DNA of 64,000 bases from an uncultured Lachnospiraceae bacterium (GCA_902798585.1 CADBXF010000010.1:66668-130667); one strand, 5' to 3'. Counted from the stretch's first letter, positions 14,772 through 30,338 are shown. The notes: generated by a model not told the origin, from the sequence alone. Program-made: numbers and translations.

Positions 14772-15437
14772 TCAGTATACCATATCTTCCTTCTGCCTGC
14801 AACCGATAGAAGGCGATTTTCCGGCAATCCATACGGCGCGTCCGACGGCATTGTCGAGATAATGCTGCAATTGATGCAGAATCAAATACCGGTTGTTATC
14901 CCGGTCATTGACAATCATCGGCATGCCGGGCGTAATCAATTGCGACTGCGGTGTCTGCGATGACATCACGGCATCGATTCGCTCCTCCGAATACCCGCGA
15001 AGACGAAGTCTTCTTCTGCGGGTTTCCTCCGAGGCAATCACAATCCAGAGCGCATCGCAGAAGTCACGGTACCCGGCCTGATCGGCCAGCGCCGATTCCA
15101 CGAACGCAACCGGATATCCCTCCTCCTCATACTGGAAAAGAAGGCGGCGAATCTCCCGTATCGTTGCGGGATGCGTGAGCGAATTCAGCAAAGAGAGCGC
15201 CCTGGCATCCGCGAACACCTTAGCCGCAAGTTTCGCGCGGTCAAGCGTCCCGTCAGACGCAAGGTAATCCTCGCCGAAGACGCGAACGACTTCCTCATAC
15301 ACCGGCTGTCCCGGCATCATCAATTCCTGGCACACGGCATCGGAGTCGATTACCGGGCAATGCGTGAGATCGATTGCGCATTTACACACATAACTTTTTC
15401 CGCTTCCGGCATTTCCGGTCAAACCGATTACATACAT
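14772..15437 (-). CDS. coaE: Dephospho-CoA kinase
   Basis: CoaE (221 residues) phosphorylates dephospho-CoA, the last step of coenzyme A synthesis. The P-loop is GLTGNAGSGKSYVCKCA at residues 5-21; CPVIDSDAVCQELM holds the substrate Asp; FVESALADQAGY and later RLRLRGYSEERIDAVMSSQ (lid region) are typical. Start at ATG 15435-15437 because agggaggtgaggg precedes it. Follows polA after 70 bases, a common polA-coaE order in Bacillota. The 70-base gap is AT-rich with a short inverted repeat but no convincing promoter. Confidence 0.93.
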   Translation of the reverse strand: MYVIGLTGNAGSGKSYVCKCAIDLTHCPVIDSDAVCQELMMPGQPVYEEVVRVFGEDYLASDGTLDRAKLAAKVFADARALSLLNSLTHPATIREIRRLLFQYEEEGYPVAFVESALADQAGYRDFCDALWIVIASEETRRRRLRLRGYSEERIDAVMSSQTPQSQLITPGMPMIVNDRDNNRYLILHQLQHYLDNAVGRAVWIAGKSPSIGCRQKEDMVY

Positions 15438-15507
15438 AGCCCTCACCTCCCTTTGTAAACTCAGCATTGTTCCGTTATTTACGAAAAATAGTAACTTTTA
15501 CTGTCAA

Positions 15508-18273
15508 TCAGCCCTTCGCTTCAAGCCAGTTTGAGCCGAGATGCACTTCGCACTCAAGCGGTACCGCGAGATCGGCGACCGACTCCATGGCGTCCTTCAG
15601 AAGGGAGGAAACCTTCTCCGCCTCGTCCTCCGGAACCTCAAGCAGCAGTTCGTCATGCACCTGAACCAAAACTCTCGCCTTGAGATTGTTTTCACGCAAT
15701 GCCCTGTCGACGGCAATCATCGCAAGCTTCATAATATCCGCGGCAGTACCCTGAATCGGTGAATTCATCGCTACGCGCTCGCCGAAGGCACGCTTTTGGA
15801 ACGAGTCGGACGACAGCTCGGGAATCGGACGAATGCGTCCGTACAATGTGCGAACAAAGCCGTTTTTCTTCGCTTCGGCAACGGTCCTGTCCAAATAGGT
15901 CCGCACACCGGGGAACCGCTCAAAATAATCCTCGATGTATTTTTCGGCCGCAGCCCGCGAAATCCCCAGGTCCTGCGCGAGCGAGAAGGAGCTTATTCCG
16001 TACAGAATTCCGAAGTTGACCGCCTTGGCGGCGCCTCTTTGCTCCGGCGTTACCTCCTCATACGGAATGCCGAGCACCTGCGAGGCAGTCAAACGATGAA
16101 TGTCCGCAGCGTCGTGGTATGCCTTCTGAAGATTCCGGTCGCCCGAAAGATGCGCCATCAGCCGAAGCTCAATCTGCGAATAATCGGCGTCTGCAAATAT
16201 GCAGCCCTCCTTCGGAATAAACGCCTTGCGGATATCCCTTCCGAGCTCTGTCCGCACGGGAATATTCTGCAGATTCGGATCGACGGAGCTGAGTCTTCCA
16301 GTAGCCGTAACGGTCTGCGTAAAGGTTGTGTGTATTCTTCCGTCCGCGGCAATATAGGCGTGCAGTCCTTCGGCATAGGTGGAATACAATTTGCTGTATT
16401 GCCGATAGGTAAGAACCGAATCAACAATCGGATAATCCGGGCGGAGCATCTCCAAAATGTCCGCATTTGTGGAATATCCGCTCTTTTTCTTCTTGTCCGG
16501 ATACGGAATATGCATCCGTTCAAACAGCACCTCGGCAAGCTGCTTCGGCGAGTTGATATTGAATTCGGTGCCGCTCTGCTCATAAATCAAGCGCGTGAGC
16601 TTGTCAATCTCGGTGCGCAGCATCGCGGAAAATGCCCCGAGCTGTGCCGTATCAACCGCAATTCCCGCGGATTCCATGTCCGCAAGCACATAACACAACG
16701 GCATTTCGGCCGTCAGAAACAGCTCTTTCATGCCCTGCTCGTCAAGCTTTTTCGAAAGCTTCTCACCGAGCGCAAGTGTAGCCTCGGCAGTCAGCTCCGG
16801 CGCCGGCACTTCGCCGTTCCACTCCGTAAAGACGGCATCCGCATCATGGGATTGCGCCAACGGGCGAAGCAGATAATCCATAAGCGCGACATCCTGCAGA
16901 CCGCTTCCGCGCGAAAAAATCCCGCACCAGTATTCCTTTGCGCCGAACACATAGACCGTAGAGCCGGATAGCTCGGACAGCGCCCCGGTAAAGCCGGCCT
17001 CTTCATCCTCCCCTACACGGAAAATATATCTGACGGAGTCCTGCGCCAGCGTGTATCTCGCACTTGTTACCGCGAGTCCGAAAGCAACCTGCCAGTCCTC
17101 CGCATTGTTCTCCTCCGCGACCTTTGTAAGTCCGATCGGCAGATTGCGTGAACCGATTTCCTTTAAAATTTTCGCCGCATCCGCAGTGCTGCATTCCTTC
17201 TCTTTAAATGCAATCTTCACCGACGCTTCCGCCTCGGGAAGCGGTATGGTACGAATCTCAAGCTCCTCGAAAACCTTCTTTAATTCCGCGTAATCAATCG
17301 CCACGGCAAGGTCCTCAAGCGACTCCGCAATCGGAATGTCTCTCTTGATTGTCGCAAGTGCGCGGCTCAATTTCGCGGCTTCCTCACCGACCACGGAATC
17401 CCCGTCCGTCTTGATTAACGCGGGAATCGGATTTTTCGTGATGCCGAGATCGTTTTTCCAGGCGGTCGCAAGCGCCTTCGCGCCCTCCTCTCCGGCCTCG
17501 TGAACCGCCTCATACAAAGCTGCAACAGTGCGGTAATGCGAAATCAGCGAAAGGGCTGTCTTCTCGCCGATTCCCGGCACACCCTTGATGTTGTCGGAGG
17601 GATCGCCTGCAATCGCCTTCAACTCGGCAACACTCCCGGGATACACCCCGTACTCCGCGGCGATACGGTCGGGCGTCATCGGAAACGCCTTCTCCGCAAC
17701 AGTCGGCGCCTCCTTGCGGATTCCGTATTTCGTGAACAGCTCATCCGCCTTTTTCTGCGCCTGCTGAAGCAGCCAGATTACCGTGTATTCATTCGCCAAC
17801 TGCAGATAATCGCGGTCCTTTGTAAGAATCCGAACAGGAATCTCCCGCTCGAATCTCGCGGCAAGCGACCCACTGAAATCATCCGCTTCAAAGTCGTTCG
17901 ACATATACTGCCGCACGCCGATTCGCGCTAAAATCTCCTGACACAGTGCAAATTGTTCGCGCAGCGGCACAATTGTCTCGCTTCGGTTGGCCTTGTAATC
18001 CGCGCACATTTTGCGGCGGAAAGTGTCCCGCGTCAGGTCCCAGGCAACCGCAAGATGCGTCGGCTTCTGCTGGCGAAGCACCTTCAGCAGATACCGAAAG
18101 AAGCCGAAAATTCCGTTTGTGTAAACACCCGAAGATGTCTGCATAATCCGCGGAAAATACTTCTCCTTCTCCTCCGGCGTCTTTGCATAGGTGATCGCCG
18201 GCGGCAGATTGCCGTAAAACTGTGTCGACAGAAGACTCGAACCGTCGATAATCAACAGATATCCGTCATTCAT
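15508..18273 (-). CDS. polA: DNA polymerase I
   Basis: PolA (921 residues) fills gaps and removes RNA primers in replication and repair. N-terminal 5'-nuclease domain: MNDGYLLIIDGSSLLS, DFEADDFSGSLAA, ILTKDRDYLQLANE and the helix-hairpin-helix IKGVPGIGEKTALSLI. The middle 3'-5' exonuclease-like domain (about 340-540) lacks the DEDD acidic residues, so proofreading is probably absent. Polymerase domain: TGRLSSVDPNLQNIPVRTE, motif A FADADYSQIELRLMA, motif B RGAAKAVNFGILYGIS, motif C VLVQVHDELLLEVPE. It starts with an ATGA overlap on the anti-sigma-like gene upstream, so the two are translationally coupled. A 25-residue insert near residue 30 is lineage-specific. Confidence 0.96.
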   Translation of the reverse strand: MNDGYLLIIDGSSLLSTQFYGNLPPAITYAKTPEEKEKYFPRIMQTSSGVYTNGIFGFFRYLLKVLRQQKPTHLAVAWDLTRDTFRRKMCADYKANRSETIVPLREQFALCQEILARIGVRQYMSNDFEADDFSGSLAARFEREIPVRILTKDRDYLQLANEYTVIWLLQQAQKKADELFTKYGIRKEAPTVAEKAFPMTPDRIAAEYGVYPGSVAELKAIAGDPSDNIKGVPGIGEKTALSLISHYRTVAALYEAVHEAGEEGAKALATAWKNDLGITKNPIPALIKTDGDSVVGEEAAKLSRALATIKRDIPIAESLEDLAVAIDYAELKKVFEELEIRTIPLPEAEASVKIAFKEKECSTADAAKILKEIGSRNLPIGLTKVAEENNAEDWQVAFGLAVTSARYTLAQDSVRYIFRVGEDEEAGFTGALSELSGSTVYVFGAKEYWCGIFSRGSGLQDVALMDYLLRPLAQSHDADAVFTEWNGEVPAPELTAEATLALGEKLSKKLDEQGMKELFLTAEMPLCYVLADMESAGIAVDTAQLGAFSAMLRTEIDKLTRLIYEQSGTEFNINSPKQLAEVLFERMHIPYPDKKKKSGYSTNADILEMLRPDYPIVDSVLTYRQYSKLYSTYAEGLHAYIAADGRIHTTFTQTVTATGRLSSVDPNLQNIPVRTELGRDIRKAFIPKEGCIFADADYSQIELRLMAHLSGDRNLQKAYHDAADIHRLTASQVLGIPYEEVTPEQRGAAKAVNFGILYGISSFSLAQDLGISRAAAEKYIEDYFERFPGVRTYLDRTVAEAKKNGFVRTLYGRIRPIPELSSDSFQKRAFGERVAMNSPIQGTAADIMKLAMIAVDRALRENNLKARVLVQVHDELLLEVPEDEAEKVSSLLKDAMESVADLAVPLECEVHLGSNWLEAKG

Positions 18274-18758
18274 TTTCCGTCCTCGTTTCGTGTATTGTCC
18301 CGAAGCCTTCGAATCGCTTCGTCATTGTATCTGCGAATGGTTTCCTTGACGGGATCGGCCGACTCGTCGATTCCGTAAAACCGAAGCTGAAGGGATTCCT
18401 CTCTCCCCTCCGGCAGAAAATATTTCTCCTGTGCGGGCAGTCGCGTCGCAAGAAATACGGCGATTACCGCAATCAAACCGAATACGACCGCACGCTTGAA
18501 CACCTGAATACGAATGTGCCGCAGTATCGTCTGTCGCGACCGCTCAAGCTTTCCCTCAAGCTCCCTTGTGTAATCGGTCGAAAAATCCTCGTTCCGGTTA
18601 ATCTGGTCAATCGCTCTGGTGAGGGAGTAATCCGTTCGGAGGTTCTCCATACAGTGCTCGCAGGTGCGAATATGTGCGAGATACTCCGGCAGAATGTCCG
18701 TGGGCAGCTCGCCGTACAAATAGCGGTCACTCCATTTTTGTGCAGTTTTGCAATCCAT
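18270..18758 (-). CDS. Anti-sigma-like membrane protein with zinc motif
   Basis: A 162-residue protein with an N-terminal zinc anti-sigma (ZAS, zf-HC2-like) motif: Cys3, then HIRTCEHC (H-x3-C-x2-C) at about residues 35-42. One membrane segment follows (about 89-105, AVVFGLIAVIAVFLATRL), then a charged domain outside. This is the layout of membrane anti-sigma factors that hold ECF sigma factors inactive. No sigma factor gene lies next to it; instead its stop overlaps the polA start (ATGA). Start chosen at ATG 18756-18758 with aaaggagc before it. Target unknown; it may have been recruited to another role. Confidence 0.7.
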   Translation of the reverse strand: MDCKTAQKWSDRYLYGELPTDILPEYLAHIRTCEHCMENLRTDYSLTRAIDQINRNEDFSTDYTRELEGKLERSRQTILRHIRIQVFKRAVVFGLIAVIAVFLATRLPAQEKYFLPEGREESLQLRFYGIDESADPVKETIRRYNDEAIRRLRDNTRNEDGK

Positions 18759-18781
18759 GGACGCTCCTTTCAAATTAGTGC

Positions 18782-18810
18782 TTGATTTTTCGCGGAAACC
18801 GTGATAAAAT
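18782..18810 (+). promoter_or_regulatory. Promoter for tRNA-Leu
   Basis: TTGATT, 17 bases, TAAAAT, ending 11 bases before the mature tRNA 5' end, so the primary transcript needs only slight 5' trimming. On the opposite strand this region is the leader of the anti-sigma-like gene. Confidence 0.65.
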
Positions 18811-18821
18811 CAGGTTCGTTC

Positions 18822-18904
18822 GCGGATGTGGCGGAATGGCAGACGCATCAGACTCAAAATCTGACGGGCTAACACTCGTGCGGGTTCAAGTCCCGCCATC
18901 CGCA
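18822..18904 (+). tRNA. tRNA-Leu (anticodon CAA)
   Basis: An 83-base class II tRNA. Acceptor stem GCGGATG/CATCCGC with discriminator A18904; D arm with GGAATGGCAGAC; anticodon stem TCAGA/TCTGA with loop CTCAAAA, giving CAA; long variable arm; T arm GCGGG/CCCGC with loop TTCAAGT. CCA is not encoded. It reads leucine UUG codons. It has its own promoter and terminator, but the opposite strand carries the 3' end of a MutS-like gene (stop at 18886-18888). Confidence 0.97.
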
Positions 18905-20463
18905 TTGCCGGGGGTATCTCCCCCGGTATTTTTATTGCCCGAATATGTGCCGTCGAGAATGTCGTTGTAAAGCTCCATTCCGTATCCGGTAGTTCCGGGC
19001 TCGCCGTGTCGCATAATGTATGTGCGCTCGCCCTCGCTCGTGCGCTCCGCCTGCAGAAACTGCGTGCGCGGACGCTCCTCATCGTACGCTTTCTTCGCAA
19101 ACGCGTAGATGTGCGTCACGAAAAATGTCGTGACCTCATTGTCCGAAAATGCCTTTAGAATATCCTCGGCAATCGCCGCTCCGTCTCTCTCCGAGGTCGT
19201 CGCAAACGACTCGTTTAAGAAAATCACGGACTCTGCCTGCATATGGTCGACAATCTTCGACAGACGCTGCAGCTCCTCCTCGAGCTTGCCGGCGTTCATC
19301 GTCACATCCTCATTCCTCACAAAGTGCGTATAAATCCCCGGGAAGATTCGCGTAATCATGTCGTGCGCAGGCACAAACATTCCGCTCTGCGCCATCAGCT
19401 GCGCAATCGCGGCGCTCCGGATAAATGTCGTCTTGCCGCCGTGGTTTGTTCCCGTGATCAGATATGTGAGCGTGTCATCCCCCTCGATATCGTTTGCCAT
19501 CGGCATCTTCAAATCCCGGATGGCAACACCGAGGTCGTAAATCCCGTGCCCCGTGATGGCGTGCTTTTCCGCCGTGACCTCGGGGAAACATACGGGGAAA
19601 CACATATTCTTCATATGGTTGTACAGGTTGCAGCAGCCGTGGAAGAAGGCAAGCTGCTGACGAAGCGTATTGAACAGCTTCATGAGTCCCATCGAAAAAC
19701 CGTCGAAGGTCGATGCGACATGCAGCAGGCCCGCATTTTGCAAATCAATGCAGTCCCGATAAAGCTGCAAATCCTCGTACGAGATGCGAATCTCATTTTT
19801 CTTGATTTTCGTTGAAAACAGCGACTCCATGATGTCGAACTTGCGCTTCGTTCGGTACTCCGAAAGCGCGTTTACCACAAGTCCGTCGGTCTTCAGCCCG
19901 TTTCCGATGGTTCCGCTGATCTGAATCTCACCGCCCTCGTCAATCGCCTTCAAGAGCGCAGCCTTCTCGTGCACAAGCTGCACGAATTCGGCGTTGAATT
20001 CCATCAGAAACTCATCGTAGAAATCACGGAAAATCGTTCCGGTAAAATGTCCGTAAGTATTGACAATCTCGCCCTTTAACCGCTCCAGGCCCTTCGCTAA
20101 GACATCCAGCTGCTCAATCGCCGTCATGAGGCGCACGGACGGCAGCGGGTTCCCGTTCTTTCTCTGCGATGTGCGGAAATTGCTGATGTCCGTGACAACC
20201 TCGGCCACGGTAGCGTACAGCGAAAGAATCGTCTTTGTGTTGCGAATCGCGTCGCGGAGCGCGCTCTGCCGGTGAAGCAGGTTTTCACGGTCCGTAAGCG
20301 GCGAAAGAAGGATTTGTTTGCACTGCTGATAGACATAGTTGTCGCCCTTGGCCATTGCCTGTAAAATCGGCTCAAGTACAAGGTCCTGACACAGATCGTT
20401 TTTGAACGGCGCGATATCTCCTTCCTGCGTGAAGCCCGGCCGGTTTAACAATTGAACTTTCAT
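18886..20463 (-). CDS. MutS-like ATPase, first of a tandem pair (A)
   Basis: A 525-residue MutS-related protein with no mismatch-recognition domain. Residues 1-330 are mostly helical, like the MutS core and clamp; the ABC-type ATPase is C-terminal. Walker A is GTNHGGKTT (338-346); the ABC signature region is around MNAGKLEEELQRL; Walker B reads SVIFLNESFATTSERD, with Asn417-Glu418 where MutS has Asp-Glu; the switch His is in FFVTHIY (451). It likely dimerises, possibly with the next gene's product, through its ATPase. Start ATG at 20461-20463 with gggggaga site, 9 bases after gene B. The last roughly 16 residues are encoded by the antisense of the tRNA-Leu terminator and T arm; the stop lies in the T-loop. 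Confidence 0.85.
   Translation of the reverse strand: MKVQLLNRPGFTQEGDIAPFKNDLCQDLVLEPILQAMAKGDNYVYQQCKQILLSPLTDRENLLHRQSALRDAIRNTKTILSLYATVAEVVTDISNFRTSQRKNGNPLPSVRLMTAIEQLDVLAKGLERLKGEIVNTYGHFTGTIFRDFYDEFLMEFNAEFVQLVHEKAALLKAIDEGGEIQISGTIGNGLKTDGLVVNALSEYRTKRKFDIMESLFSTKIKKNEIRISYEDLQLYRDCIDLQNAGLLHVASTFDGFSMGLMKLFNTLRQQLAFFHGCCNLYNHMKNMCFPVCFPEVTAEKHAITGHGIYDLGVAIRDLKMPMANDIEGDDTLTYLITGTNHGGKTTFIRSAAIAQLMAQSGMFVPAHDMITRIFPGIYTHFVRNEDVTMNAGKLEEELQRLSKIVDHMQAESVIFLNESFATTSERDGAAIAEDILKAFSDNEVTTFFVTHIYAFAKKAYDEERPRTQFLQAERTSEGERTYIMRHGEPGTTGYGMELYNDILDGTYSGNKNTGGDTPGNADGGT
18908..18933 (+). terminator. Rho-independent terminator after tRNA-Leu
   Basis: Perfect 7-base stem CCGGGGG/CCCCCGG with loop TATCT, followed by TATTTTT. 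It starts three bases after the tRNA. The minus-strand MutS-like reading frame passes through it. Confidence 0.9.
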
Positions 20464-20472
20464 TCTCTCCCC

Positions 20473-22011
20473 CTATTTTCTGTGCAACCGGTAGTTAATA
20501 TGGCTGTAATCAAGCTTGTATTTGCTGACGATGGAATTCGCATAGGCTACACCGTCGGCGCGTTTCCGAACGATTCGATAGGTTCTCCGGCAGGTTCCGT
20601 CCTCCACGACGGTTGCAACCAGGCTGACATAATCCTCGGAATCAAGCGCAATCTCATAGGTGTGCGTGACATAGAAGCAAATCGCATTGTTTGCAAGAAG
20701 ACGCTTCAGCAGATCACGGCTCATCGCAAGCGCGTCAATCGTCGGAGCCGAGGTAAACAGCTCATTCAAAATGACGATGCTTCGGTGGTCAACCTGAGAC
20801 AGCATGTCCCGAATTCTGGTGATTTCGTTGGCGAGCCGGCCGTCCACGCCGTCCGCGCCCTCCTCGTTTGCAAAATGCGTGAAGATGTTCGTGATATAGG
20901 GAAGCTTACATACGCCGGCAGGTACAGGCAATCCCATCATACCGAAATAAAAGCACTGACCGAAGGCACGGGCAAGCGTCGTCTTGCCGCCCTGGTTCGG
21001 GCCGGTCACGATGATGGCCTTCTCGAAATTTGCCTTCATGATATCGTTTAAAATGACTTCCCTCTTCGCCTTCGTGTTTCGAAGAGCAAGCACGAAATCA
21101 TAGCAGTTATCGAGATACAGCTCCTTGTCCTTCACCAGAAGAGGCATGACAATCGGAAGTCCCTCGTCCTTCATTTTGTTTAAGAAATTGAGATTGTCGC
21201 GGAAAAACCGGATCTCGCGCAGAAGGTCGAGAACATCCTGCGAGAGCACATTGCCGCACCGCTCGCCGAACGAGGTCAGCTGTAAAAACACCTGACGGTT
21301 CTCTTTCTCGAGCTGTTTGAGAATAAAGCTCTCAAGGGGCGATACATCCATCGCGGGGAACGGATGGTCGCGGAACGGTACAAACACTTCATCCTCTGCA
21401 ATCGTGTTGGCGAGCGCCAGCCTGAGCGGCGCGCAATAATCCGCCGGATTGTAGGAAAGGTCAAAGGTCGCTTTATCCTTGTTAATGCTGATGTGGAAAC
21501 GCATCTTTTCAAACTCGTCATGGATTGTCTTCGCGGTCACGCGAAGGCGTCTTACCGCAGAGGTGTTGAGCAGGCGGAACAATTCCTGGTGAAGCGCGTA
21601 AAACGCCCTGGATTTGGGCGGTACGCGGTTAAACGCGACACAGAGATCCTCCATCGCCTGATAATACTGCAAAATGCAGTCCGTGTTCCATTTGTATTTC
21701 TGCGAAGCCTCGAGCACATTGTCGGCACACTGGCGGCAACGCACCGCCTCACCGATTTTCGAAACGAAATCATCGATGATTTCCGAGATTTCGGGATCGG
21801 ACAGGTCGCGAATAACCTCCTGACGGTATTTTGCGACATCATAGGACTTCGCTTCGCAGTAAAAGTACGGAATCAGCTCCCTGTCATCGTACGACTCCGC
21901 CCATTCCGCAGCATATTGATCGAGATTCAAATCACGAAAAAACGAAGGCTCGGGAATCGTGCATACATCCTCGTATGTCATCGTATCCTCCGGCCAGAAC
22001 AGACTGATCAT
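20473..22011 (-). CDS. MutS-like ATPase, second of a tandem pair (B)
   Basis: A 512-residue paralogue of gene A with the same plan: a helical region of about 330 residues, then a C-terminal MutS-type ATPase. Walker A is GPNQGGKTT (337-345), followed by GMMGLPVPAGVCKLPYITNI, a close match to the MutS P-loop helix region. Walker B is SIVILNELFTSAPTIDA, again Asn416-Glu417 instead of Asp-Glu. The switch His is in CFYVTHTYEIA. No DNA-mismatch (Phe-x-Glu) domain is present. First gene of a likely operon with A (gap 9 bases); start ATG 22009-22011 with ggga ggt site. Tandem arrangement and matched divergence suggest a heterodimer. Function unknown: DNA repair, recombination control or RNA/ribosome work are all possible. 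Confidence 0.85.
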   Translation of the reverse strand: MISLFWPEDTMTYEDVCTIPEPSFFRDLNLDQYAAEWAESYDDRELIPYFYCEAKSYDVAKYRQEVIRDLSDPEISEIIDDFVSKIGEAVRCRQCADNVLEASQKYKWNTDCILQYYQAMEDLCVAFNRVPPKSRAFYALHQELFRLLNTSAVRRLRVTAKTIHDEFEKMRFHISINKDKATFDLSYNPADYCAPLRLALANTIAEDEVFVPFRDHPFPAMDVSPLESFILKQLEKENRQVFLQLTSFGERCGNVLSQDVLDLLREIRFFRDNLNFLNKMKDEGLPIVMPLLVKDKELYLDNCYDFVLALRNTKAKREVILNDIMKANFEKAIIVTGPNQGGKTTLARAFGQCFYFGMMGLPVPAGVCKLPYITNIFTHFANEEGADGVDGRLANEITRIRDMLSQVDHRSIVILNELFTSAPTIDALAMSRDLLKRLLANNAICFYVTHTYEIALDSEDYVSLVATVVEDGTCRRTYRIVRKRADGVAYANSIVSKYKLDYSHINYRLHRK

Positions 22012-22050
22012 AGTAACCTCCCTTACACCGTATTGCCTCCCCCTGCAGTC

Positions 22051-22896
22051 TCATCGCAGAGAAAGAATCCCCACACCACGCAAATCCTTGTGCGTCAGAA
22101 GCGATGTATCGCTCCACGCCGTAATCGCGTCACGGTTCTCAGCCGTGTATGCATCGTTGACCCGGATATCAAATCCGATGTCGTTGCTTCTCCTGTTGGA
22201 GGGCAACACAAACCGTATTGCAATCTCCATCCGGTATCCGCCTTCGGTTTCGACGACAACAAACTCCGCATTGTCCCCGTCAGCGCCGTTACCGCATACG
22301 CAGGTACCGTCGCGCAGGAAAATGAAATGGCAGTCGCCCTCCCCGTATTGTCCCGGGCGAAGCCCGGACTCGTTGATAAATATCTCCACGCCGTCTTTTC
22401 TCGTCGGAACATCCCCTGCCGTATGTCTCGTATTGTCAAACACTTCGACGAGGAGATAGAGATGCGTGTTATCACAGCAGGCGCGGAAATCAGCCTGCGT
22501 CGGCTTTCCGAAGATTCCGTTGACAAGCAAGTAGGTTTGACTGAGGTCATACAGCCGGTCCGCGACACCGTCAATTCGGATGCCGGACAGCCTTGCGGAG
22601 CCTGCAACCTTGTCGGAACGCTGCGCAAAATAGGCGTCTTCCGACTCCTCCACCTCAATTCTTCCGTATCTTGACTCCGTGATGTCCGAACCCGGAACCG
22701 GTGTCACGGTCACATCGCGGGGAGGTCTCTTCGTCGGCGCCGGAGTCGGTGTCGGAAGATCGTTTCTGTCGTCATAACGCTCGCCCGAGCACGGAGTCGG
22801 CTTTGCGTTTGCATTCATACGGCTGGAAAGCGATGCAACAAGAATAAACAGTACAGCTGCGGGCAGAACGAAACGCATTTTCCGTGAAGCTTTCAT
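22051..22896 (-). CDS. Secreted CBM9-like protein with Pro/Thr linker
   Basis: A 281-residue exported protein. It opens with a basic N-terminus and one hydrophobic segment (MKASRKMRFVLPAAVLFILVASL), which could be a signal peptide or an anchor; no lipobox Cys is present. A low-complexity linker (LPTPTPAPTKRPPRD) follows, then a beta-rich domain from about residue 85 (RIDGVADRLYDLSQTYLLVN ... LYLLVEVFDNTRH ... GVEIFINESG ... YRMEIAIRF ... IGFDIRVNDAYT ... AITAWSD) that resembles family 9 carbohydrate-binding modules. No catalytic domain is attached. ATG at 22894-22896 with gaggagg site. Paralogue of the lipoprotein encoded just upstream. Confidence 0.75.
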   Translation of the reverse strand: MKASRKMRFVLPAAVLFILVASLSSRMNANAKPTPCSGERYDDRNDLPTPTPAPTKRPPRDVTVTPVPGSDITESRYGRIEVEESEDAYFAQRSDKVAGSARLSGIRIDGVADRLYDLSQTYLLVNGIFGKPTQADFRACCDNTHLYLLVEVFDNTRHTAGDVPTRKDGVEIFINESGLRPGQYGEGDCHFIFLRDGTCVCGNGADGDNAEFVVVETEGGYRMEIAIRFVLPSNRRSNDIGFDIRVNDAYTAENRDAITAWSDTSLLTHKDLRGVGILSLR

Positions 22897-22930
22897 CTCT
22901 TTCCTCCTCTCCGACGATTTTTTCGACAGT

Positions 22931-23677
22931 TTAATCCATTCGAACCGTTCCCACACCGGTCATTGTAATCTCCGTTTTTCCGCTGGTATCCGCCCATTGC
23001 ACAACATGCACGCATTCACCCTCGAAGGCATTGTTGATTCGAACATCAAATCCGATCTCCCGGTCATACCGTCCCGTCACCGAGCGAAGCGGTATGCGAA
23101 ACTCCGCATAATAGGCGTTTCCCTTTGCCTCGGGATCCTCATAGACCGAGCAGACGAAGCCTTCCTCCGCGCCGCCGCGCCCGACATATCCTCTTCCGCT
23201 CCGATCCACAGCGTAAAATGCATCTCCGACCGCATACCGGAGGTTCTTCCGGCCGTCCTCGTTGATGTAAATGACAACGCTGTCACGCTCGTACACATCA
23301 TCCGCTCCGGTATCGAAAGTGTTGTCGTTCACCCGAACCAAAACATAGACCGCATCCTCCTCCCAGAGAAAGCGAAACCATCCGTCCGTTCCTCCGTCGC
23401 CTGACACCGTCTGCGTGATCGGATTGTCCTTCGCAAGGTTCCAGACATTCTGCCGGTGTCCGAGAAAAATCGGGGAAACCGGCTCCGCAAGCGCATGCAG
23501 ATTCGTCTCCACGGGATTGCGAAACGGCGGTGTCGGCGTCACGACTGCGGTCGGCGCAGGCTCCGGCGTAAGGTTCTTATCAGCGGAAGTACAGGCTCCG
23601 AGCATCAAAAGCAAAACCGTCACTGCTGCGAGCAGTACGATTGTCCTTCGAATTCGGTTGTGAAGCCCGTGACTCAT
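22931..23677 (-). CDS. Lipoprotein with CBM9-like domain
   Basis: A 248-residue lipoprotein: hydrophobic signal (TIVLLAAVTVLLLMLGAC) with lipobox LGAC, lipid-bearing Cys at about residue 29, and a Pro/Thr-rich linker (PEPAPTAVVTPTPPFRNP). The outer domain (FLWEEDAVYVLVRVNDNTF ... DSVVIYINEDGRKN ... AYYAEFRIPLRS ... IGFDVRINNAF ... VVQWADTSGKTE) shares its pattern of beta strands with the next gene and with CBM9 modules. It likely binds a carbohydrate at the cell surface. ATG at 23675-23677 with aaggac site, 11 bases after trhP, so it may be transcribed from the trmR-trhP operon even though the functions differ. Confidence 0.8.
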   Translation of the reverse strand: MSHGLHNRIRRTIVLLAAVTVLLLMLGACTSADKNLTPEPAPTAVVTPTPPFRNPVETNLHALAEPVSPIFLGHRQNVWNLAKDNPITQTVSGDGGTDGWFRFLWEEDAVYVLVRVNDNTFDTGADDVYERDSVVIYINEDGRKNLRYAVGDAFYAVDRSGRGYVGRGGAEEGFVCSVYEDPEAKGNAYYAEFRIPLRSVTGRYDREIGFDVRINNAFEGECVHVVQWADTSGKTEITMTGVGTVRMD

Positions 23678-23688
23678 CTGTCTGTCCT

Positions 23689-24927
23689 TTACTTCTGTTT
23701 CTCCGCAGCGATAACCGTCCGCATGACATCACCCGGTTCGGGCGCAATCTCCGTCCGGATTCCGACACGCATACCGGGATGCGGACAGGAATCTATCTCC
23801 GCACCGTCCCCGTCTCTCATGGCAAGCACGCGGGTCGAAATGTTTCTTCCGTCCGTCTTCATAAACGCGACGGTATCCCCGACACAGAACTTGTTTTTCT
23901 GCGTAAACTCCGAATATCCGTCCGAAGTTACAGTGTCTACGGTGCCGAGATAAACCGCGCCGGTATCGGCCGTCGCAGATTCATATTTCATGGATTCCTC
24001 TCCGGGGGTTCCGAAGAAGAAGCCGGTCGTACAGTCCCTTCCCTCGCACAGGCGAATCTCCTCCGCAAGCATCGGAAGCATCGCCCGATACTCCTCCGGG
24101 TCGCGCTTTGCGGCGTCGATTGCGAGGCGATAGGCCCTTGCAATTCCCGCGATATACAGCGAATGCTTCATGCGGCCTTCCACTTTCCAGCTGTCGATTC
24201 CCGCGGCAAGAAGCTCGGGAACATTTTCAATCATACATAAATCGCGGGAGTTTAAAATGTATGTCCCGCGCTCGTTTTCCTCGACCGGAAAATACTCACC
24301 GGGCCGTTTTTCCTCCACAAGCGCATAGCGCCAGCGGCACGGATGCGTACATGCACCGAGATTGGCATCGCGCCCCGTCATATAGTTTGACAAAAGGCAG
24401 CGCCCGGAGTAGGAAATGCACATCGCGCCGTGGACGAAGGCCTCAATCTCCTGCTCCTTCGAAAGCTCCGCGCGAATCTGCGCAATCTCCGCAAGCGACA
24501 ACTCTCTTCCGCAGACGACGCGGGATGCACCGAGGCGGTACCAGAAGCGAAATGTCTCAACATTCACATTGTTCGCCTGCGTGCTTATATGAATTGCAAT
24601 CTCCGGGCGAAGCGTCTCCTTCGCAATAGAGAAAACACCGGGATCCGATATAATCACCGCATCCGGCACGATTTCATTCAATTCCGCAAAATACTTCCTG
24701 ACACCGCTTAAATCCCTGTTGTGCGCCGTGATATTGGCCGTCACATATAGTTTCCGCCCGTTTGCATGGCAAAATGCAATACCTTTGGCCATATCCTCCG
24801 GGGAGAAATTAATCGCTTTTGCACGCAGACCGTACTGCTCGCCGCCGACATATACAGCGTCAGCGCCGTACCGGACGGCAGTCTTAAGAAGCGGAAGGGA
24901 GCCTGCAGGCATCAACAATTCCGTCAT
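23689..24927 (-). CDS. trhP: tRNA uridine-34 hydroxylase / U32 peptidase family
   Basis: A 412-residue U32-family protein. The family signature EAFVHGAMCISYSGRCLLSNYM and the following CTHPCRW supply Cys residues for an iron-sulfur cluster. MTELLMPAGSLPLLKTAVRYGADAVYVGG is the TIM-barrel opening. Members of this family (TrhP; YrrN/YrrO in Bacillus) add the oxygen that makes 5-hydroxyuridine at tRNA position 34, using prephenate. The next gene upstream is trmR, which methylates that product, so the assignment to tRNA modification rather than proteolysis is well supported by context. ATG at 24925-24927. Gap to trmR is 32 bases. Confidence 0.85.
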   Translation of the reverse strand: MTELLMPAGSLPLLKTAVRYGADAVYVGGEQYGLRAKAINFSPEDMAKGIAFCHANGRKLYVTANITAHNRDLSGVRKYFAELNEIVPDAVIISDPGVFSIAKETLRPEIAIHISTQANNVNVETFRFWYRLGASRVVCGRELSLAEIAQIRAELSKEQEIEAFVHGAMCISYSGRCLLSNYMTGRDANLGACTHPCRWRYALVEEKRPGEYFPVEENERGTYILNSRDLCMIENVPELLAAGIDSWKVEGRMKHSLYIAGIARAYRLAIDAAKRDPEEYRAMLPMLAEEIRLCEGRDCTTGFFFGTPGEESMKYESATADTGAVYLGTVDTVTSDGYSEFTQKNKFCVGDTVAFMKTDGRNISTRVLAMRDGDGAEIDSCPHPGMRVGIRTEIAPEPGDVMRTVIAAEKQK

Positions 24928-24959
24928 AGTACTCACAATCCCCCTTTCCGGTGTAATCG

Positions 24960-25628
24960 TCATTTTGCTTTCCGACTGATTGTCATCCCGTCTCCGACCG
25001 GCAGCAGCACACTCGTCAAGTCGGAATCTCCGAACAGTGCGTCAACATACTCGCGCATGCGCATATGAATCGTCCTATCCCGCCGCGGAACCGTGAATTT
25101 CGAATCCGCAAGGCTGCCTTCCTGCAGAACATTGTCCGTGACCAGAATGCCGCCCGGAGCAAGCATTTTTCGAAGATGCGGCAGATATACCGGATACTGC
25201 GCCTTCGCCGCGTCAAGGAAAATGAAATCATATTGTCTTCCCTCCGCGCTCAACCGCTCGCACCAATCGGCTGCATCTCCCTCAAGAAGCGTGATACAGG
25301 AGCGCAAATCCTCCCACTCCGCGAGGAGCGCATGCACGGCCGCAATCCGTGCCGGAACTTTTTCAATCGTCTCTATCGGCACCCGGTATCCGGTATAATG
25401 CGCCATGAGCGAAGCGGAAAATCCGACGGCGGTACCGATTTCAAGAATGGATTCCGGCTGCTGCCATTCCAACAAAAAGCGAAGAAGTCCCTGTGCTTCT
25501 TTGCGAATGATAGGAACTTCCTCTTGCTTAGCTCTGCTTTCCATTGTCGACAGCCGATCCGGCAAATCCGGTACGAGTGAGCTCACATATTCGGCAATAT
25601 GAGGCTGGACCAGCAGGGAGTCAATCAT
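24960..25628 (-). CDS. trmR: tRNA 5-hydroxyuridine methyltransferase
   Basis: A 222-residue class I SAM methyltransferase of the O-methyltransferase family (YrrM). SAM-binding motif I is ESILEIGTAVGFSASLMAHY (about residues 58-77); FIFLDAAKAQYPVYLPHL has the metal-binding Asp; ILVTDNVLQEGSL and FGDSDLTSVLLPVGDGM complete the fold. TrmR converts 5-hydroxyuridine-34 to 5-methoxyuridine in tRNAs that read codons ending in several bases. Its start overlaps the mltG-like gene by 8 bases and trhP follows, matching Bacillus yrrL-yrrM-yrrN-yrrO. Confidence 0.87.
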   Translation of the reverse strand: MIDSLLVQPHIAEYVSSLVPDLPDRLSTMESRAKQEEVPIIRKEAQGLLRFLLEWQQPESILEIGTAVGFSASLMAHYTGYRVPIETIEKVPARIAAVHALLAEWEDLRSCITLLEGDAADWCERLSAEGRQYDFIFLDAAKAQYPVYLPHLRKMLAPGGILVTDNVLQEGSLADSKFTVPRRDRTIHMRMREYVDALFGDSDLTSVLLPVGDGMTISRKAK

Positions 25629-26052
25629 TCAGCAACTCCTCCTCTTCGAACTTCTCGGTCGAGACGGAAATGATATTCAATATTTCAGTATAGTTCATGT
25701 TTGTGTTGAGCTTGTATGTCCCGGGGATGATGTTGTATTTGTTGATTTTGACCTTGACATAGAATGAAAGCTCGTTGACGATGATTCCCTCGCGTTCGAG
25801 ACGCTTCGCGACATCGCGAGTCGAGTCGCCGGCTTCGATAAAGATTTCCTTCTCCTCGCCGTCCTCATAGGAAGCCATCGTCACATTGCCGAACAGCTGA
25901 TAGCAAAAATCCTTGGCGTAAAAGCTTGCTCTTACGATGAAAAATGCGACAAGCAAATAAAAGACGACATCGATGATGATTCGGATAATCATCGTCGAAC
26001 TTGAAATAACAAGCCGTCCCGCCTGATTGGTTTTGTTTGGTTTCTTTCTCAT
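25621..26052 (-). CDS. MltG/YceG-like membrane protein, no catalytic domain
   Basis: A 143-residue protein with a basic N-terminus, one membrane helix (about 22-50, IIRIIIDVVFYLLVAFFIVRA) and an outer domain resembling the LysM-like part of MltG (IFIEAGDSTRDVAKRLEREGI ... YNIIPGTYKLNTNMNYTEIL). Full MltG is over 330 residues and ends in a transglycosylase domain with a catalytic Glu; that domain is missing here. It occupies mltG's place next to trmR. The second ATG (26050-26052) is preferred because ggagg lies 7 bases ahead; the first is too close to it. It may be a peptidoglycan-binding or regulatory relic, and short forms like this occur in other Clostridia to my knowledge. Confidence 0.75.
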   Translation of the reverse strand: MRKKPNKTNQAGRLVISSSTMIIRIIIDVVFYLLVAFFIVRASFYAKDFCYQLFGNVTMASYEDGEEKEIFIEAGDSTRDVAKRLEREGIIVNELSFYVKVKINKYNIIPGTYKLNTNMNYTEILNIISVSTEKFEEEELLND

Positions 26053-26088
26053 ATGCATTCCTCCCCGGCACCCGCGAAATGTGCCGTC

Positions 26089-27759
26089 TTATTCCGCCTC
26101 GACGATGATCGGAAGAATCATCGGCCGACGCTTCAGCTCACGCCAGATGAATTCACTGAGCGCATTGCGGATGTCCGCCTTAAGACGCCCGATATCCCTG
26201 CTGTGGCTGTCGGAAAACATTTCCATGCACGAGACGACAATCTCCTTCGCCCGGTTGATTATCTCCTCGGCATCCTTGATATACACAAAGCCCTTCGTCA
26301 CAATCTCGGGCTCGCTCACGAAATACATCTCGTCGGTATCCATGCAAAGCGATACGATAAGAATACCGTTTTCGGAGAGATACTGCCGATCGCGAAGCAC
26401 GATGTTGCCGACATCTCCGACACCGAGTCCGTCGACAAGCACCCCGCGAGCCGGAACAGTCTCCGTAATCTCCGCCTTCTTCTGTGAAAGCGAGAGCACA
26501 TCGCCGGATTTTAATACAATGACATGCTCCTTATCCCAGCCGAGATCCAGGCAGAGATTTCTCTGTGCGATGCGATGACGGAACTCGCCGTGAATCGGAA
26601 TCGCATACTTCGGGCGAATCAGGCTGTACAAAAAGCGAATCTCGTCCTGGCATGCATGTCCGGATACATGCGTATCCTGGAAAATTACATTCGCGCCGAG
26701 CACCGACAGATCGTTGATTAACCGGAATACGCTCTTCTCGTTGCCCGGAATCGGCGTGGAGCTTATGATTACAACATCTCCCGGGAATATCGTAATCTTT
26801 TTGTGCGCCGAAGCGGCAACCCTCGAGAGCGCTGCCATCGGTTCGCCCTGGCTTCCCGTCATAATCAGCACAAGCTGTTCCGACGGATACCGGGAGGTCT
26901 CCTCAAGCGGAATCAAAACATTTTCCGGAAGACGTATATAACCGAGCTCGACGGCTGTATTGACAATATTGACCATGCTTCGTCCGTCGATGGCAACCTT
27001 GCGGCCGTACTTGACGGCACAGTTGATAATCTGCTGAATCCGGTCGACATTCGATGCAAATGTGGCCACGATAATGCGGTGGTTCACATTGTCGGCAAAA
27101 ATGTTGTCAAAAGTCTTGCCGACTGTGCGCTCTGACATCGTCATGCCGGGCTTTAAGGCGTTCGTGCTGTCGCAAAGAAGCGCCAATACGCCCTTCGTTC
27201 CGAGAACACCCAACCGCTGTAAATCGATGGTATCGCCGTAAACCGGCGTAAAGTCGATTTTGAAATCGCCGGTATGAATCACGGTTCCGGCGGGAGTCGT
27301 GATGGCAAGTGCACTTGAACCGGCAATGCTGTGATTTGTGCGGATATATTCCACGGAGATGCTTCCGCACGAAATCGTGTCTCCGTAATCGACAACCTCA
27401 AGCGGCACATCCACCTCGCGGGGCGCCTCCTCGAGCTTGTTTGCGATAATTGCAATTGTAAGCTGCGTACCGTATACCGGCGCGGGAACATCGCGGAGAA
27501 CATACGGGAGCGCTCCGATATGGTCCTCATGACCGTGGGTGATGAAATATCCTCTGACCTGCTCTTTATGTTCACGCAAAAAAGTCACATCAGGAATGAC
27601 CAAATCGATTCCCAGCATGTCGTCGCTCGGAAAAGCAAGACCGCAGTCGACAACAATAATATCCTCTCCGTAGCAGAAGGCCGTGATATTCATGCCTACC
27701 TGCTCCAGTCCGCCGAGCGGAATTATACGCATTGTTTTTTTCGTACCTTTAGAACTCAT
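26089..27759 (-). CDS. rnj: Ribonuclease J
   Basis: RNase J (556 residues) is the 5'-3' exo- and endoribonuclease central to RNA decay and processing in Bacillota. Zinc site: YFITHGHEDHIGALPYVLRD (HxHxDH near residue 77), further ligands in IHTGDFKIDFTP and later. The beta-CASP domain has LLCDSTNALKPGMTMSE, TGSQGEPMAALSRVA and VSGHACQDEIRFLYSLIRPKYAIPIHGEFRH. The C-terminal domain (ENGILIVSLCMD ... FVYIKDAEEIINRAKE) is typical. Start MSSKGTKKTMRIIPLGG with aaagga site. It lies 12 bases after the DUF1292 gene. Confidence 0.94.
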   Translation of the reverse strand: MSSKGTKKTMRIIPLGGLEQVGMNITAFCYGEDIIVVDCGLAFPSDDMLGIDLVIPDVTFLREHKEQVRGYFITHGHEDHIGALPYVLRDVPAPVYGTQLTIAIIANKLEEAPREVDVPLEVVDYGDTISCGSISVEYIRTNHSIAGSSALAITTPAGTVIHTGDFKIDFTPVYGDTIDLQRLGVLGTKGVLALLCDSTNALKPGMTMSERTVGKTFDNIFADNVNHRIIVATFASNVDRIQQIINCAVKYGRKVAIDGRSMVNIVNTAVELGYIRLPENVLIPLEETSRYPSEQLVLIMTGSQGEPMAALSRVAASAHKKITIFPGDVVIISSTPIPGNEKSVFRLINDLSVLGANVIFQDTHVSGHACQDEIRFLYSLIRPKYAIPIHGEFRHRIAQRNLCLDLGWDKEHVIVLKSGDVLSLSQKKAEITETVPARGVLVDGLGVGDVGNIVLRDRQYLSENGILIVSLCMDTDEMYFVSEPEIVTKGFVYIKDAEEIINRAKEIVVSCMEMFSDSHSRDIGRLKADIRNALSEFIWRELKRRPMILPIIVEAE

Positions 27760-27771
27760 AAATTCCTTTCT

Positions 27772-28059
27772 TTACTCTTCATACTCGAAGTCAACATCCT
27801 CGAGGATGTCGTCGAACGCTTCTCCGAGCTCGCGCAACTCGGCATCGTCATCGACCATTCGATAGGTGATTGTGTCCTGTGCGGACCCGTTTGCCTCGAG
27901 AATATAAGCCATGTCGTCCCCGGGCTCCGTAACCAGAAGATATTCCTTCCCGTCGCGGCTTGTCGACGCAACCACGGTAAACGACACCTTGGTTCCGTCC
28001 TCCGCCTCAAACACCACCGTTGACTCCGTATTTTGTAATTCCCTGTTTTCCTGTTTCAT
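27772..28059 (-). CDS. DUF1292 family protein
   Basis: A 95-residue acidic protein of the DUF1292 family (YrzB-like). The core STVVFEAEDGTKVSFTVV ... EYLLVTEPGDD ... ITYRMVDDDAEL shows the family beta-strand pattern, and the tail is strongly acidic (FDDILEDVDFEYEE). No known function; it is nearly always found between ruvX and mltG or rnj in Bacillota. ATG at 28057-28059 with taaggag site, 10 bases after ruvX. Confidence 0.88.
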   Translation of the reverse strand: MKQENRELQNTESTVVFEAEDGTKVSFTVVASTSRDGKEYLLVTEPGDDMAYILEANGSAQDTITYRMVDDDAELRELGEAFDDILEDVDFEYEE

Positions 28060-28069
28060 GTAATTCTCC

Positions 28070-28570
28070 TTAACCGAGCCGGCTCAAGGCAATCCTTGAG
28101 AGCAGGCTCTCCTTCTCCTCCGGATGATTTGACACAAATTCCATATAGGATTGCAAAATCACCACTGCCGCAAGCTTGTCAATCACCGACTCCCGCGTCT
28201 CGCGCTTCACACCGGCCGAATTCAATGCCCGTCCGGCCTCCACCGTGGTAAGTCTCTCGTCCCACAAAACAACGGGCAGCCCCGTCCGTCTCTCCAGGTC
28301 TGCCGCAAAAGCCTCCGTCTTCTCGGCGCGCTCGCCTACGGAGTTATCCAGTCGTTTCGGGTAACCTACAATAAGCGCGTTGACACCGCGCTCCGCAACA
28401 ATCTCCTCAATTCTCGCATAGGTCTGACGAAGCTTCGACTCATGCTTACGGCGAATCACCTCAAGCGGCTGCGCAGTAAGGAAGAGCCCGTCACTGCCGG
28501 CAACGCCGACCGTGGCCGCTCCGAAATCCAATCCGAGTAATCGCAATTCTTCCATTCCGTGTCCGGGCAT
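28070..28570 (-). CDS. ruvX: Putative pre-16S rRNA nuclease RuvX (YqgF)
   Basis: RuvX trims the 5' end of 16S rRNA precursor and has a Holliday-junction resolvase fold. Catalytic elements: [17 protein letters not shown] (first Asp), [38 protein letters not shown] and [17 protein letters not shown] (last Asp). The start is uncertain. The ATG at 28568-28570 lies inside a hairpin (CGGGCAT/ATGCCCG) and 12 bases from ggagg. The ATG at 28553-28555 ([12 protein letters not shown]) fits the family N-terminus and would be brought near the same ggagg if the hairpin forms. It lies 20 bases after ireB. Confidence 0.9.
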
Positions 28571-28590
28571 AGCATGCCCGTGCCTCCGTA

Positions 28591-28845
28591 CTAAAATTCA
28601 ATCTGATTGATGTACATCTTCACGAGCTCTTCGATAATTTCATCGCGTTCGATGCGCGCAATCGCGCTGCGGGCATTCATATGGCTCGTAATATATGTGG
28701 GATCCCCGCTCATCAGATATCCTACAATCTGTGCAGTAGGATTGTATCCCTTCTCTCGGAGTGCCATATATACGAGATCCAGAACCTCATGAATTCGCTC
28801 GTTGGAATGCTCCGGGGATGTAAAATGTACTGTGTTGCCGTTCAT
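28591..28845 (-). CDS. ireB: IreB family regulatory phosphoprotein (DUF965)
   Basis: An 84-residue member of the IreB/YrzL family, a substrate of the Ser/Thr kinase IreK in enterococci that tunes cephalosporin resistance. The conserved core [37 protein letters not shown] is intact; the N-terminal phosphorylatable Thr/Ser region is [16 protein letters not shown]. Start at ATG 28843-28845 with gaggaga site. A possible promoter lies at 28876-28905 (TTGCAA, 18 bases, TATTTT on the minus strand). It heads the ireB-ruvX-DUF1292-rnj-mltG-trmR-trhP run. Confidence 0.92.
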
Positions 28846-28958
28846 ATTCTTTTCTCCTCTCCTTCTTTCGACATTAAAATACGCACATGGCGGAAAGATT
28901 TGCAACGCAACTCCCGCATCTTCCGAAAGAAACCCTATTTATTTTACCGCAAACACCG

Positions 28959-30338
28959 TCAAATAGCAACTGTTTCTTGCGAAAGTACCGTGCCGTCGGA
29001 AAGCAGCGAAACGCCGGTCACCGTGCGCACCTCATTTCGCGGGTCGTTGTCACATTGCATCGCATACGGCACATAGTTCTTTCCGTAGCCGATGTAATAT
29101 TCCGCACCGTCAATCACCGCCGTCTCCTCAAAAAGCACTTCCGCCGTCTCACCGATTCTGCGTTGCCGGTAGGAAAGCTTCTCCTCTTCTGAAACCGCAA
29201 TCATTTCAGCGGCGCGCTCCTTCTTGACCGCCTCCGTAAGCTGTCCCTCCATCCGGTCGGCAACCGTTCCCTTTCTACGGGAAAACGGGAACACATGCAC
29301 CTGCGCAAACCCGATTTTCCGCACAAATGCTGTCGATTCGAAGAAATCTTCTTCGGTTTCTCCCGGAAATCCGACAATGATGTCCGTCGTAATCGCCGGG
29401 TTGGAAAATGCTCCGCGAATCCTGCTTACGACCTCCGAATACTCTGCGGCCGTGTATTTTCGGTTCATGGCGCGAAGCGTCCGGTCACATCCGCTCTGAA
29501 GAGACAGATGGAACTGCGGGCACAGCCCGCGTATTTTCGCCAGCGCCTGTACGGTTTCCTCCGTCATCGCCCGCGGTTCGAGGGATCCGAGGCGGATTCT
29601 CCCGATTCCCGGCACCTCACTCACGGCCCTCACAAGCGTTATCAGCGGAAGCTCCCCGTCCTTCACAACCAATGACGCCTGCTCCGAAACGCTTCGGGTC
29701 TCGAGCCCGTAGGAAGAGAGATGAATACCGTTCAAAACCACTTCCTTTGCGCCCTCCGAAGCCAATTGCCGAACCTCAGAGAGTACGGATTCGACGCTTC
29801 TTGAGCAGATTCGACCTCTTGCAAACGGGATGATGCAATAGCTGCAAAACTGATTGCAACCGTCCTGCACCTTCAAAAATGCCCGTGTCCGCTTCGAGCA
29901 ATGCAGCGGCGGCAGGTCCTCAAACCCGGTCGAAGCCTCCGCAAAATAAAAGAACGGCCCCGATTCGCCGGCTGCAAGCCCGGAAAAAACCTCGTTGACA
30001 AGTTGCGTTATCTCGCCCTTTCTCCGGTTTCCGACGAAGACATCGACCGCCTCGTCGGGCGCATTTTTCGACTGCTCCTGCACATAGCATCCCGTGGCGA
30101 CAATAAGCGCATCCGGGGAAAGCGTCCGTGCGCGGTGAAGCATCTGCCTCGATTTCCGATCTGCAATATTGGTCACTGAGCAGGTGTTTACGAGGTAGAG
30201 GTCGGCCGCCTCGTCGAAGGCAACCTCCTTTGCCCCGCATGCAAGCAACTGCTCGCGAATCGCCTCGGATTCACAGGTGTTAACCTTACAGCCGAGCGTA
30301 TGAATCGCAAATCTCTTGTCCTGCAGATGATTTTCCAT
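28959..30338 (-). CDS. mtaB: tRNA t6A37 methylthiotransferase MtaB
   Basis: A 459-residue radical-SAM methylthiotransferase that converts t6A37 to ms2t6A in tRNAs reading ANN codons. N-terminal UPF0004 domain: FAIHTLGCKVNTCESEAI, LYLVNTCSVTNIADRKSR and VATGCYVQ supply three Cys for the auxiliary cluster. The radical-SAM motif is KVQDGCNQFCSYCIIPFARG (CxxxCxxC). The C-terminal TRAM domain is in GETAEVLFEE. VNTCSVTN and CKVNTCE place it in the MtaB (YqeV) group rather than MiaB. Start at ATG 30336-30338 with cggag. Stands between the ireB run and a divergent HPr-like gene. Confidence 0.92.
   Translation of the reverse strand: MENHLQDKRFAIHTLGCKVNTCESEAIREQLLACGAKEVAFDEAADLYLVNTCSVTNIADRKSRQMLHRARTLSPDALIVATGCYVQEQSKNAPDEAVDVFVGNRRKGEITQLVNEVFSGLAAGESGPFFYFAEASTGFEDLPPLHCSKRTRAFLKVQDGCNQFCSYCIIPFARGRICSRSVESVLSEVRQLASEGAKEVVLNGIHLSSYGLETRSVSEQASLVVKDGELPLITLVRAVSEVPGIGRIRLGSLEPRAMTEETVQALAKIRGLCPQFHLSLQSGCDRTLRAMNRKYTAAEYSEVVSRIRGAFSNPAITTDIIVGFPGETEEDFFESTAFVRKIGFAQVHVFPFSRRKGTVADRMEGQLTEAVKKERAAEMIAVSEEEKLSYRQRRIGETAEVLFEETAVIDGAEYYIGYGKNYVPYAMQCDNDPRNEVRTVTGVSLLSDGTVLSQETVAI

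Follow-up and report, generated by a model that had tools for sequence, protein, structure and literature searches.

The window analyzed here is a 64,000-nucleotide stretch of DNA from an uncultured Lachnospiraceae bacterium (GCA_902798585.1, CADBXF010000010.1:66668-130667), and the subject of this report is a pair of adjacent minus-strand genes within it that encode MutS-like ATPases. Gene B (20473-22011; 512 amino acids (aa); Walker B ILNELF) lies upstream as the first gene of the pair, and gene A (18886-20463; 525 aa; Walker B FLNESF) follows as the second, the two open reading frames (ORFs) being separated by 9 nucleotides (nt). The sole Pfam model that matches these proteins is MutS_V (82.7 bits for A and 61.6 bits for B, with a cut-off of 30.2 bits); neither the MutS_I mismatch domain nor connector domain II, any other MutS domain model, Smr or KOW was found by Pfam in A or B, and the architecture of both is that of a MutS domain III-V type ATPase. 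The Walker A motif is TGTNHGGKT in A and TGPNQGGKT in B, the Walker B motif is FLNESFATT and ILNELFTSA, respectively, with Asn-Glu in both cases, and the switch His is kept in A (VTHIY) as well as in B (VTHTY). An earlier note on this DNA had described adjacent MutS-type ATPase genes without a mismatch-recognition domain, with Asn-Glu at Walker B next to a good Walker A and a switch His; the ORFs are exactly those given there, and each of these features is seen in both proteins. Compared with each other, A and B align with 29% identity, over 199 aa only.

A profile built from the window pair and a few relatives delineates a family that is well separated from the other MutS-type proteins. Searched in 392 genomes of the order, this profile yields 260-630 bits across ~500 aa for family members, compared with 149 bits for the best other MutS-type protein; window A and B score 603 and 628 bits, respectively, and, since the profile includes these two sequences, it is relevant that the separation from the 149-bit non-member is also seen for members outside the build. 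The family was found in 53 of these 392 genomes by our own count and is patchy at the wider scale, with 23 of 245 genomes for the class and 27 of 398 for the phylum. No NCBIfam equivalog for the family was found. The genome that contains the window encodes seven MutS_V proteins, namely, MutS1, MutS2, one MutS-like protein with Asp-Glu, the window pair and a second B-A pair on contig C8 that the earlier note had not noticed.

Among the 326 distinct family members, the Walker B Asp position is occupied by Asn in 319 and by Asp in six, all of which are unpaired singletons of one clade. The one odd case is A of the second pair in the same genome, in which a poly-T run followed by 20 nt of the Illumina P5 adapter replaces the Walker B motif (L008 10478-10497, reverse strand; adapter AATGATACGGCGACCACCGA, giving FFFNDTATTE), whereas the congeners read LNESFATTTEKEG at the motif that was lost. 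The native codons at this site are probably similar to the adapter end, GCGACCACCGAG, so that mispriming by the adapter, or an assembly error in the deposited genome, seems to account for the stretch. With 319 of the 326 members sharing it, Asn is a hallmark of the whole family, singletons included, and, therefore, not a matched change in the window pair, as the earlier note had proposed. The same note had regarded its proposal as vulnerable to the finding that Asn at this site is standard in an already characterized MutS subfamily; Asn is indeed standard in a subfamily, but no characterized one was found, and KamC, discussed below, has Asp.

The family Asn equals the D693N substitution of Escherichia coli MutS, a variant that has been crystallized (PDB 3K0S), and substitutions in this Walker B motif are reported to abolish the ATPase and repair activities of E. 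coli MutS (PMC3848065). By analogy with D693N, the earlier note's suggestion that the pair uses ATP more slowly or in an altered way is plausible. In a more radical version of this idea, Asn would abolish useful Mg-ATP hydrolysis altogether, and the pair would be a catalytically dead, nucleotide-bound structural dimer. The Asp-to-Asn change in every pair and the effect of the E. coli substitutions are compatible with such a scaffold, as are the loss of the switch His in one subunit of the fluoride-linked clade described below, where read, and the B protein of a divergent congener (L058 9866-11422, genome G011), in which Walker A is decayed (GPEKSGKT) and the switch His is lost (ITDT) while A is intact. 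Nevertheless, 325 of the 326 members retain the catalytic Glu and all 326 the Walker A Lys, and the Walker A Thr/Ser is never lost; selection, therefore, still seems to maintain the ATPase site, which makes a dead scaffold improbable.

The two genes are inherited together. Of 80 named loci from Lachnospiraceae that are of the second-pair type, 76 hold both genes; each of the remaining four starts close to a contig end, a few hundred bases away at most. In two trees, the first genes and the second genes fall into separate clades that mirror each other, and, for 33 pairs, the distance matrices of A and B are correlated with r = 0.986, compared with a highest value of 0.48 in 2000 permutations. 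Many of the pairs overlap by the stop/start codon. Thus, the possibility that A and B occur separately in most genomes, which the earlier note had named as grounds for abandoning its idea, does not materialize. Taken together, these observations are strong genomic evidence that A and B are an obligate two-subunit unit, and we infer that the two proteins form a heterodimer. The earlier note's view of an uncharacterized, paired unit outside mismatch repair is borne out to the extent that the pair is co-inherited and presumably heterodimeric. Mirrored first- and second-gene clades are also present in other families (f8, f22 and f180), so that singletons seem to have given rise to pairs on more than one occasion; the deep placements in the trees are weak. 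At one locus (L283 8052-11384, genome G763), two ATPases of the family appear to be fused in a single 1111-aa frame, a natural covalent pair.

Outside Lachnospiraceae, the recurring neighbors of the pair are genes for an MFS transporter, a dynamin-type GTPase, UspA, a cation:proton antiporter, a P-type ATPase and enolase. When the fluoride riboswitch model (Rfam RF01734) was run on 60 genomes, matches turned up beside the pairs. An aptamer was detected before the pair, on the same strand, in 20 loci, in 16 of these without an intervening gene and in four with one MFS gene between; in the 16 gene-free cases, most of the distances are within ~200 nt, the furthest being 410. Most of these aptamers independently pass the Rfam gathering score, whereas those in G544, G756, G658, G1017 and G1015 are below it. 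The chance per gene is roughly estimated at ~1 in 3,500. The riboswitch-linked pairs account for 19 of the 22 pairs in one tree clade, which, on the A and B sides alike, is the sister to the clade to which the window pair and the second pairs of Lachnospiraceae belong. This fluoride-linked clade is found on 48 plasmid records from Klebsiella, Citrobacter, Enterobacter, Rhodococcus, Burkholderia and others, usually in islands that hold crcB, eno, uspA, pyrophosphatase and antiporter genes. The order is antiporter, UspA, B, A, P-ATPase, crcB, gpmA, eno in Enterobacter ludwigii; eno, DUF190, ppa, eno, NUDIX, B, A, dynamin, pyrophosphatase in Burkholderia multivorans; and B, A, PAP2, MFS, eno, crcB, crcB, UspA in Rhodococcus. 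All five plasmid islands searched contain RF01734 matches, and, in Burkholderia, the aptamer directly precedes B (L300 6274-6338, with B starting at 6487). The position of the riboswitches and the identity of the neighbors show that one branch of the paired family is a part of fluoride-tolerance islands, a part that is predicted to be fluoride-inducible.

In the fluoride-linked clade, where read (L121, L261, L263-L265, L268, L272, L273, L279 and L285), Phe occupies the switch His position in B (VTF), and A keeps the His, a difference inside the pair that would be the ATPase asymmetry expected of a specialized heterodimer. Asn is also present in clades without a fluoride link and in singletons, so that an origin of this residue as a fluoride adaptation is unlikely. 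Two further proteins recur in the vicinity. A dynamin-family GTPase is encoded beside pairs of this clade in L257, L261-L265, L272, L273 and L300 and has its own fluoride riboswitch in L315, L321 and L322, and is possibly a further unexplained fluoride-response gene; a small Cys-containing protein of ~220-240 aa, with the motif GC.[VI]C near the start, is found near the pairs in six loci (L262, L264, L271, L272, L273 and L279).

The plasmid genes of this clade are named ‘DNA mismatch repair protein MutS' in the databases, and Weinberg et al. (2010) list ‘DNA repair (mutS)' downstream of the fluoride (crcB-motif) RNA (PMC2864571). The gene in that list is most likely this paired family: in both cases, riboswitches control MutS-annotated genes, and the sister clade of the window pair shares the neighbors crcB, eno, uspA, ppa and antiporters, although the window pair itself, unlike the listed gene, has no riboswitch. 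Because a sister branch of the pair sits under fluoride-sensing RNAs in resistance islands, the ‘mutS' of the fluoride response is unlikely to be a protein of mismatch repair. In a sample of 398 genomes, none of the 30 strongest riboswitch loci contains canonical MutS, a weak test given that the paired family is also absent there. A 2020 review states that genes in this riboswitch network were misannotated (PMC7266159), and a review of fluoride resistance published in 2024 is silent on mutS (PMC11139923). In the fluoride literature covered here (Baker et al. 2012 aside), the riboswitch-associated mutS is called DNA repair, and the pairing, the absence of the mismatch domain and the Asn are not described. 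The experimentally tested fluoride operon of Enterobacter cloacae FRM belongs to the same class of mobile fluoride islands (ppaC, uspA, eno, gpmA, crcB, riboswitch) but lists no mutS gene (PMC5533749), and the pair, therefore, appears to be an accessory part of the islands.

The window proteins match the Enterobacter island proteins with 31% identity over 484 aa (237 bits) between A and the second gene of the island, and 28% identity over 487 aa (216 bits) between B and the first gene. Because these alignments span 484 and 487 aa, compared with 199 aa between A and B, the window genes are side-specific counterparts of the island pair. Nevertheless, the window pair lies outside the riboswitch clade. 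Neither RF01734 nor any other Rfam cis element was found upstream of the pair, with RF01734 scanned over 17500-29500 even at E<=1; RF01734 is also missing from the rest of this genome and from the vicinity of the 80 related Lachnospiraceae loci. The neighbor set of the fluoride islands (crcB/CLC-F, eno, uspA) is not found beside the window pair, where the neighbors differ. A fluoride role of the window copy is possible but without direct support because the riboswitch, CrcB and CLC were not found in the genome.

The neighborhood of the window pair is of a different kind. Upstream, and in the same direction, are two genes for CBM9 proteins (22051-22956 and 22931-23677, both minus) and a U32 peptidase gene (23689-24963, minus), with an O-methyltransferase gene beyond these; downstream, also co-directional, are genes for a small unknown protein (18270-18773, minus), polA (15508-18273, minus) and coaE (14772-15467, minus). 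As stated in the earlier note, there is no mutS or mutL neighbor. The adjacent CBM9 genes are lipoprotein-like, and their position is kept across most of the genus. All congeners read share the gene order RNase J, small gene, O-methyltransferase, U32, CBM9, CBM9, B, A, small gene, polA, coaE, save for single absent CBM9 genes and contig ends. Of the other 21 genomes in the genus, 20 have A, and the one without it is a draft that is 79% complete. The neighbors on both sides are syntenic in the genus, and any functional link of theirs to the pair is putative. A search for a constant functional neighbor across Lachnospiraceae came up empty: the synteny of the window pair is confined to the genus, and the contexts of the second pairs vary. 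At the 3' end of gene A, a tRNA-Leu (CAA) gene on the plus strand (18822-18904) is convergent with A and overlaps its last 19 nt; the final 16 residues of A are predicted to be disordered.

The AlphaFold single-chain models (mean predicted local distance difference test of 83.5 for A and 87.2 for B) show a helical lever/core, a short beta clamp and the ATPase. The model of A matches the MutS fold and that of B the MutS and MutS2 folds; the best solved-structure matches to B include Bacillus MutS2 in its ribosome-bound form and the core of Thermus MutS2. The net charge of the clamp is +1 in A and -2 in B, compared with -1 for the MutS1 core of the same genome.

The pair fits neither MutS1 nor MutS2 nor KamC. 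The NCBIfam models for MutS1, MutS2 and KamC match A and B in the ATPase part only, and far below the respective cut-offs: 75.9 and 56.9 bits vs 480 for MutS1, of which domains I and II are absent; 63.0 and 52.7 bits vs 400 for MutS2, of which Smr is absent; and 66 and 51 bits vs 300 for KamC, a lone MutS-like gene with Asp-Glu, so that identity with the KamB-KamC pair was rejected as well. A role in anti-phage defense was also rejected, PADLOC giving marginal ATPase-level matches only (best E 5.8e-05, 21 bits); one divergent match is the only case of phage carriage.

With MutS1 and the eukaryotic MSH2-MSH6 and MSH2-MSH3 dimers, the pair would share an ABC-type composite ATPase dimer and, with MSH, the use of paired paralogs, but A and B lack the mismatch-recognition and connector domains, and other clients are to be expected. 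The annotation of the plasmid copies, the filing of the riboswitch-controlled gene under DNA repair by Weinberg et al. and the location of polA two genes downstream in the window would all fit a MutS-like clamp that acts in repair or recombination on stress-induced DNA structures. Such a role is hard to reconcile with the missing mismatch domain, with scores of 57-76 bits vs MutS equivalog cut-offs of 480-640, with Asn in a motif the substitution of which inactivates E. coli MutS, and with a complete MutS1 elsewhere in the genome and a non-basic clamp; we accordingly give it the lowest probability of the readings considered here. The domain III-V core and the fold matches to B connect the pair with MutS2, which is known for ribosome-collision splitting and endonuclease activities, and could suggest that the pair, like the MutS2 core, acts on ribosomes or translational GTPases that stress has stalled, in the sister clade through GDP-fluoride trapping, a notion that the recurrent dynamin-type GTPase would also suit. 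However, A and B are devoid of Smr and KOW and carry Asn, MutS2 is separately present in the genome, and there is no link to translation genes, so that rescue of translation appears unlikely, too.

KamC (NCBIfam NF052383) is a closer parallel. This protein is a stand-alone MutS-type ATPase of ~510-550 aa, the same size as A and B, that lacks the mismatch domain and, according to its family name, is a reactivase of an enzyme, lysine 5,6-aminomutase. By extension, ATP-driven closure of the pair might pry Mg-fluoride-phosphate and ADP-MgFx/AlFx off phosphoryl-transfer enzymes or, in the lineage of the window, reactivate some other jammed enzyme. The fluoride-sensitive targets enolase, pyrophosphatase and phosphoglycerate mutase are encoded beside the plasmid pairs, and no known DNA-acting domain or partner of A and B was found. 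Against this stand the facts that KamC is of another family, with Asp-Glu at Walker B, and is the single MutS-like gene of the kam operon, with a P-loop partner, KamB, that is not MutS-like; moreover, no kam genes were found among those next to the window pair, no enzyme neighbor is constant across the family, and the window neighbors are ordinary. A reactivase is best regarded as a tentative possibility; we prefer it to ribosome rescue and to DNA repair, but our confidence in all three is low. A still more specific, and rather improbable, scenario is an asymmetric, MutS-derived heterodimer dedicated to the ATP-driven repair of enzymes or nucleotide sites poisoned by fluoride, in which Asn would weaken the trapping of the pair's own Mg/ADP by fluoride, so that the pair stays active while Mg-fluoride and Al-fluoride are stripped from the clients; Lachnospiraceae without exporters would then keep constitutive copies against fluoride or a related anion.

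The explanation that we favor, with somewhat better than even confidence, is that the pair is an obligate heterodimeric ATP-gated clamp or remodeler of a non-mismatch client, from an uncharacterized MutS-like family one branch of which is fluoride-linked. A and B would be the two subunits, each consisting of the lever/core, the short clamp and the ATPase (domains III-V). Because Asn stands throughout the family in place of the Walker B Asp, which holds the water shell of Mg2+, the binding of ATP would be expected to control a conformational switch rather than to power rapid turnover. A mismatch is an improbable client, and a protein or a ribonucleoprotein might be likelier than DNA, with low certainty. 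The window pair, vertically kept at a fixed chromosomal place, would most likely perform the same molecular job without fluoride control. Several observations weigh against parts of this explanation: unpaired family members exist, so that pairing is not required everywhere; the case for the heterodimer is genomic, and the structure models are of single chains; the near-neutral clamp counts only weakly against a DNA client, given that the MutS1 core of the same genome is near neutral as well; and the known fluoride hardware, CrcB and CLC, is absent from the genome.

The list of fluoride riboswitch-controlled genes has carried ‘mutS' as an unexplained DNA-repair gene since 2010, and the evidence presented here corrects this annotation to a family of paired ATPases that lack the mismatch domain, carry a fixed Asn at Walker B and have spread on plasmids. 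The question now becomes what role an ATP-gated MutS-like pair plays against fluoride. The Asn of this family is a natural counterpart of the inactivating D693N change in MutS, and the several MutS-like genes that, apparently, became paired independently should be useful for understanding how homodimeric ABC clamps become heterodimers.

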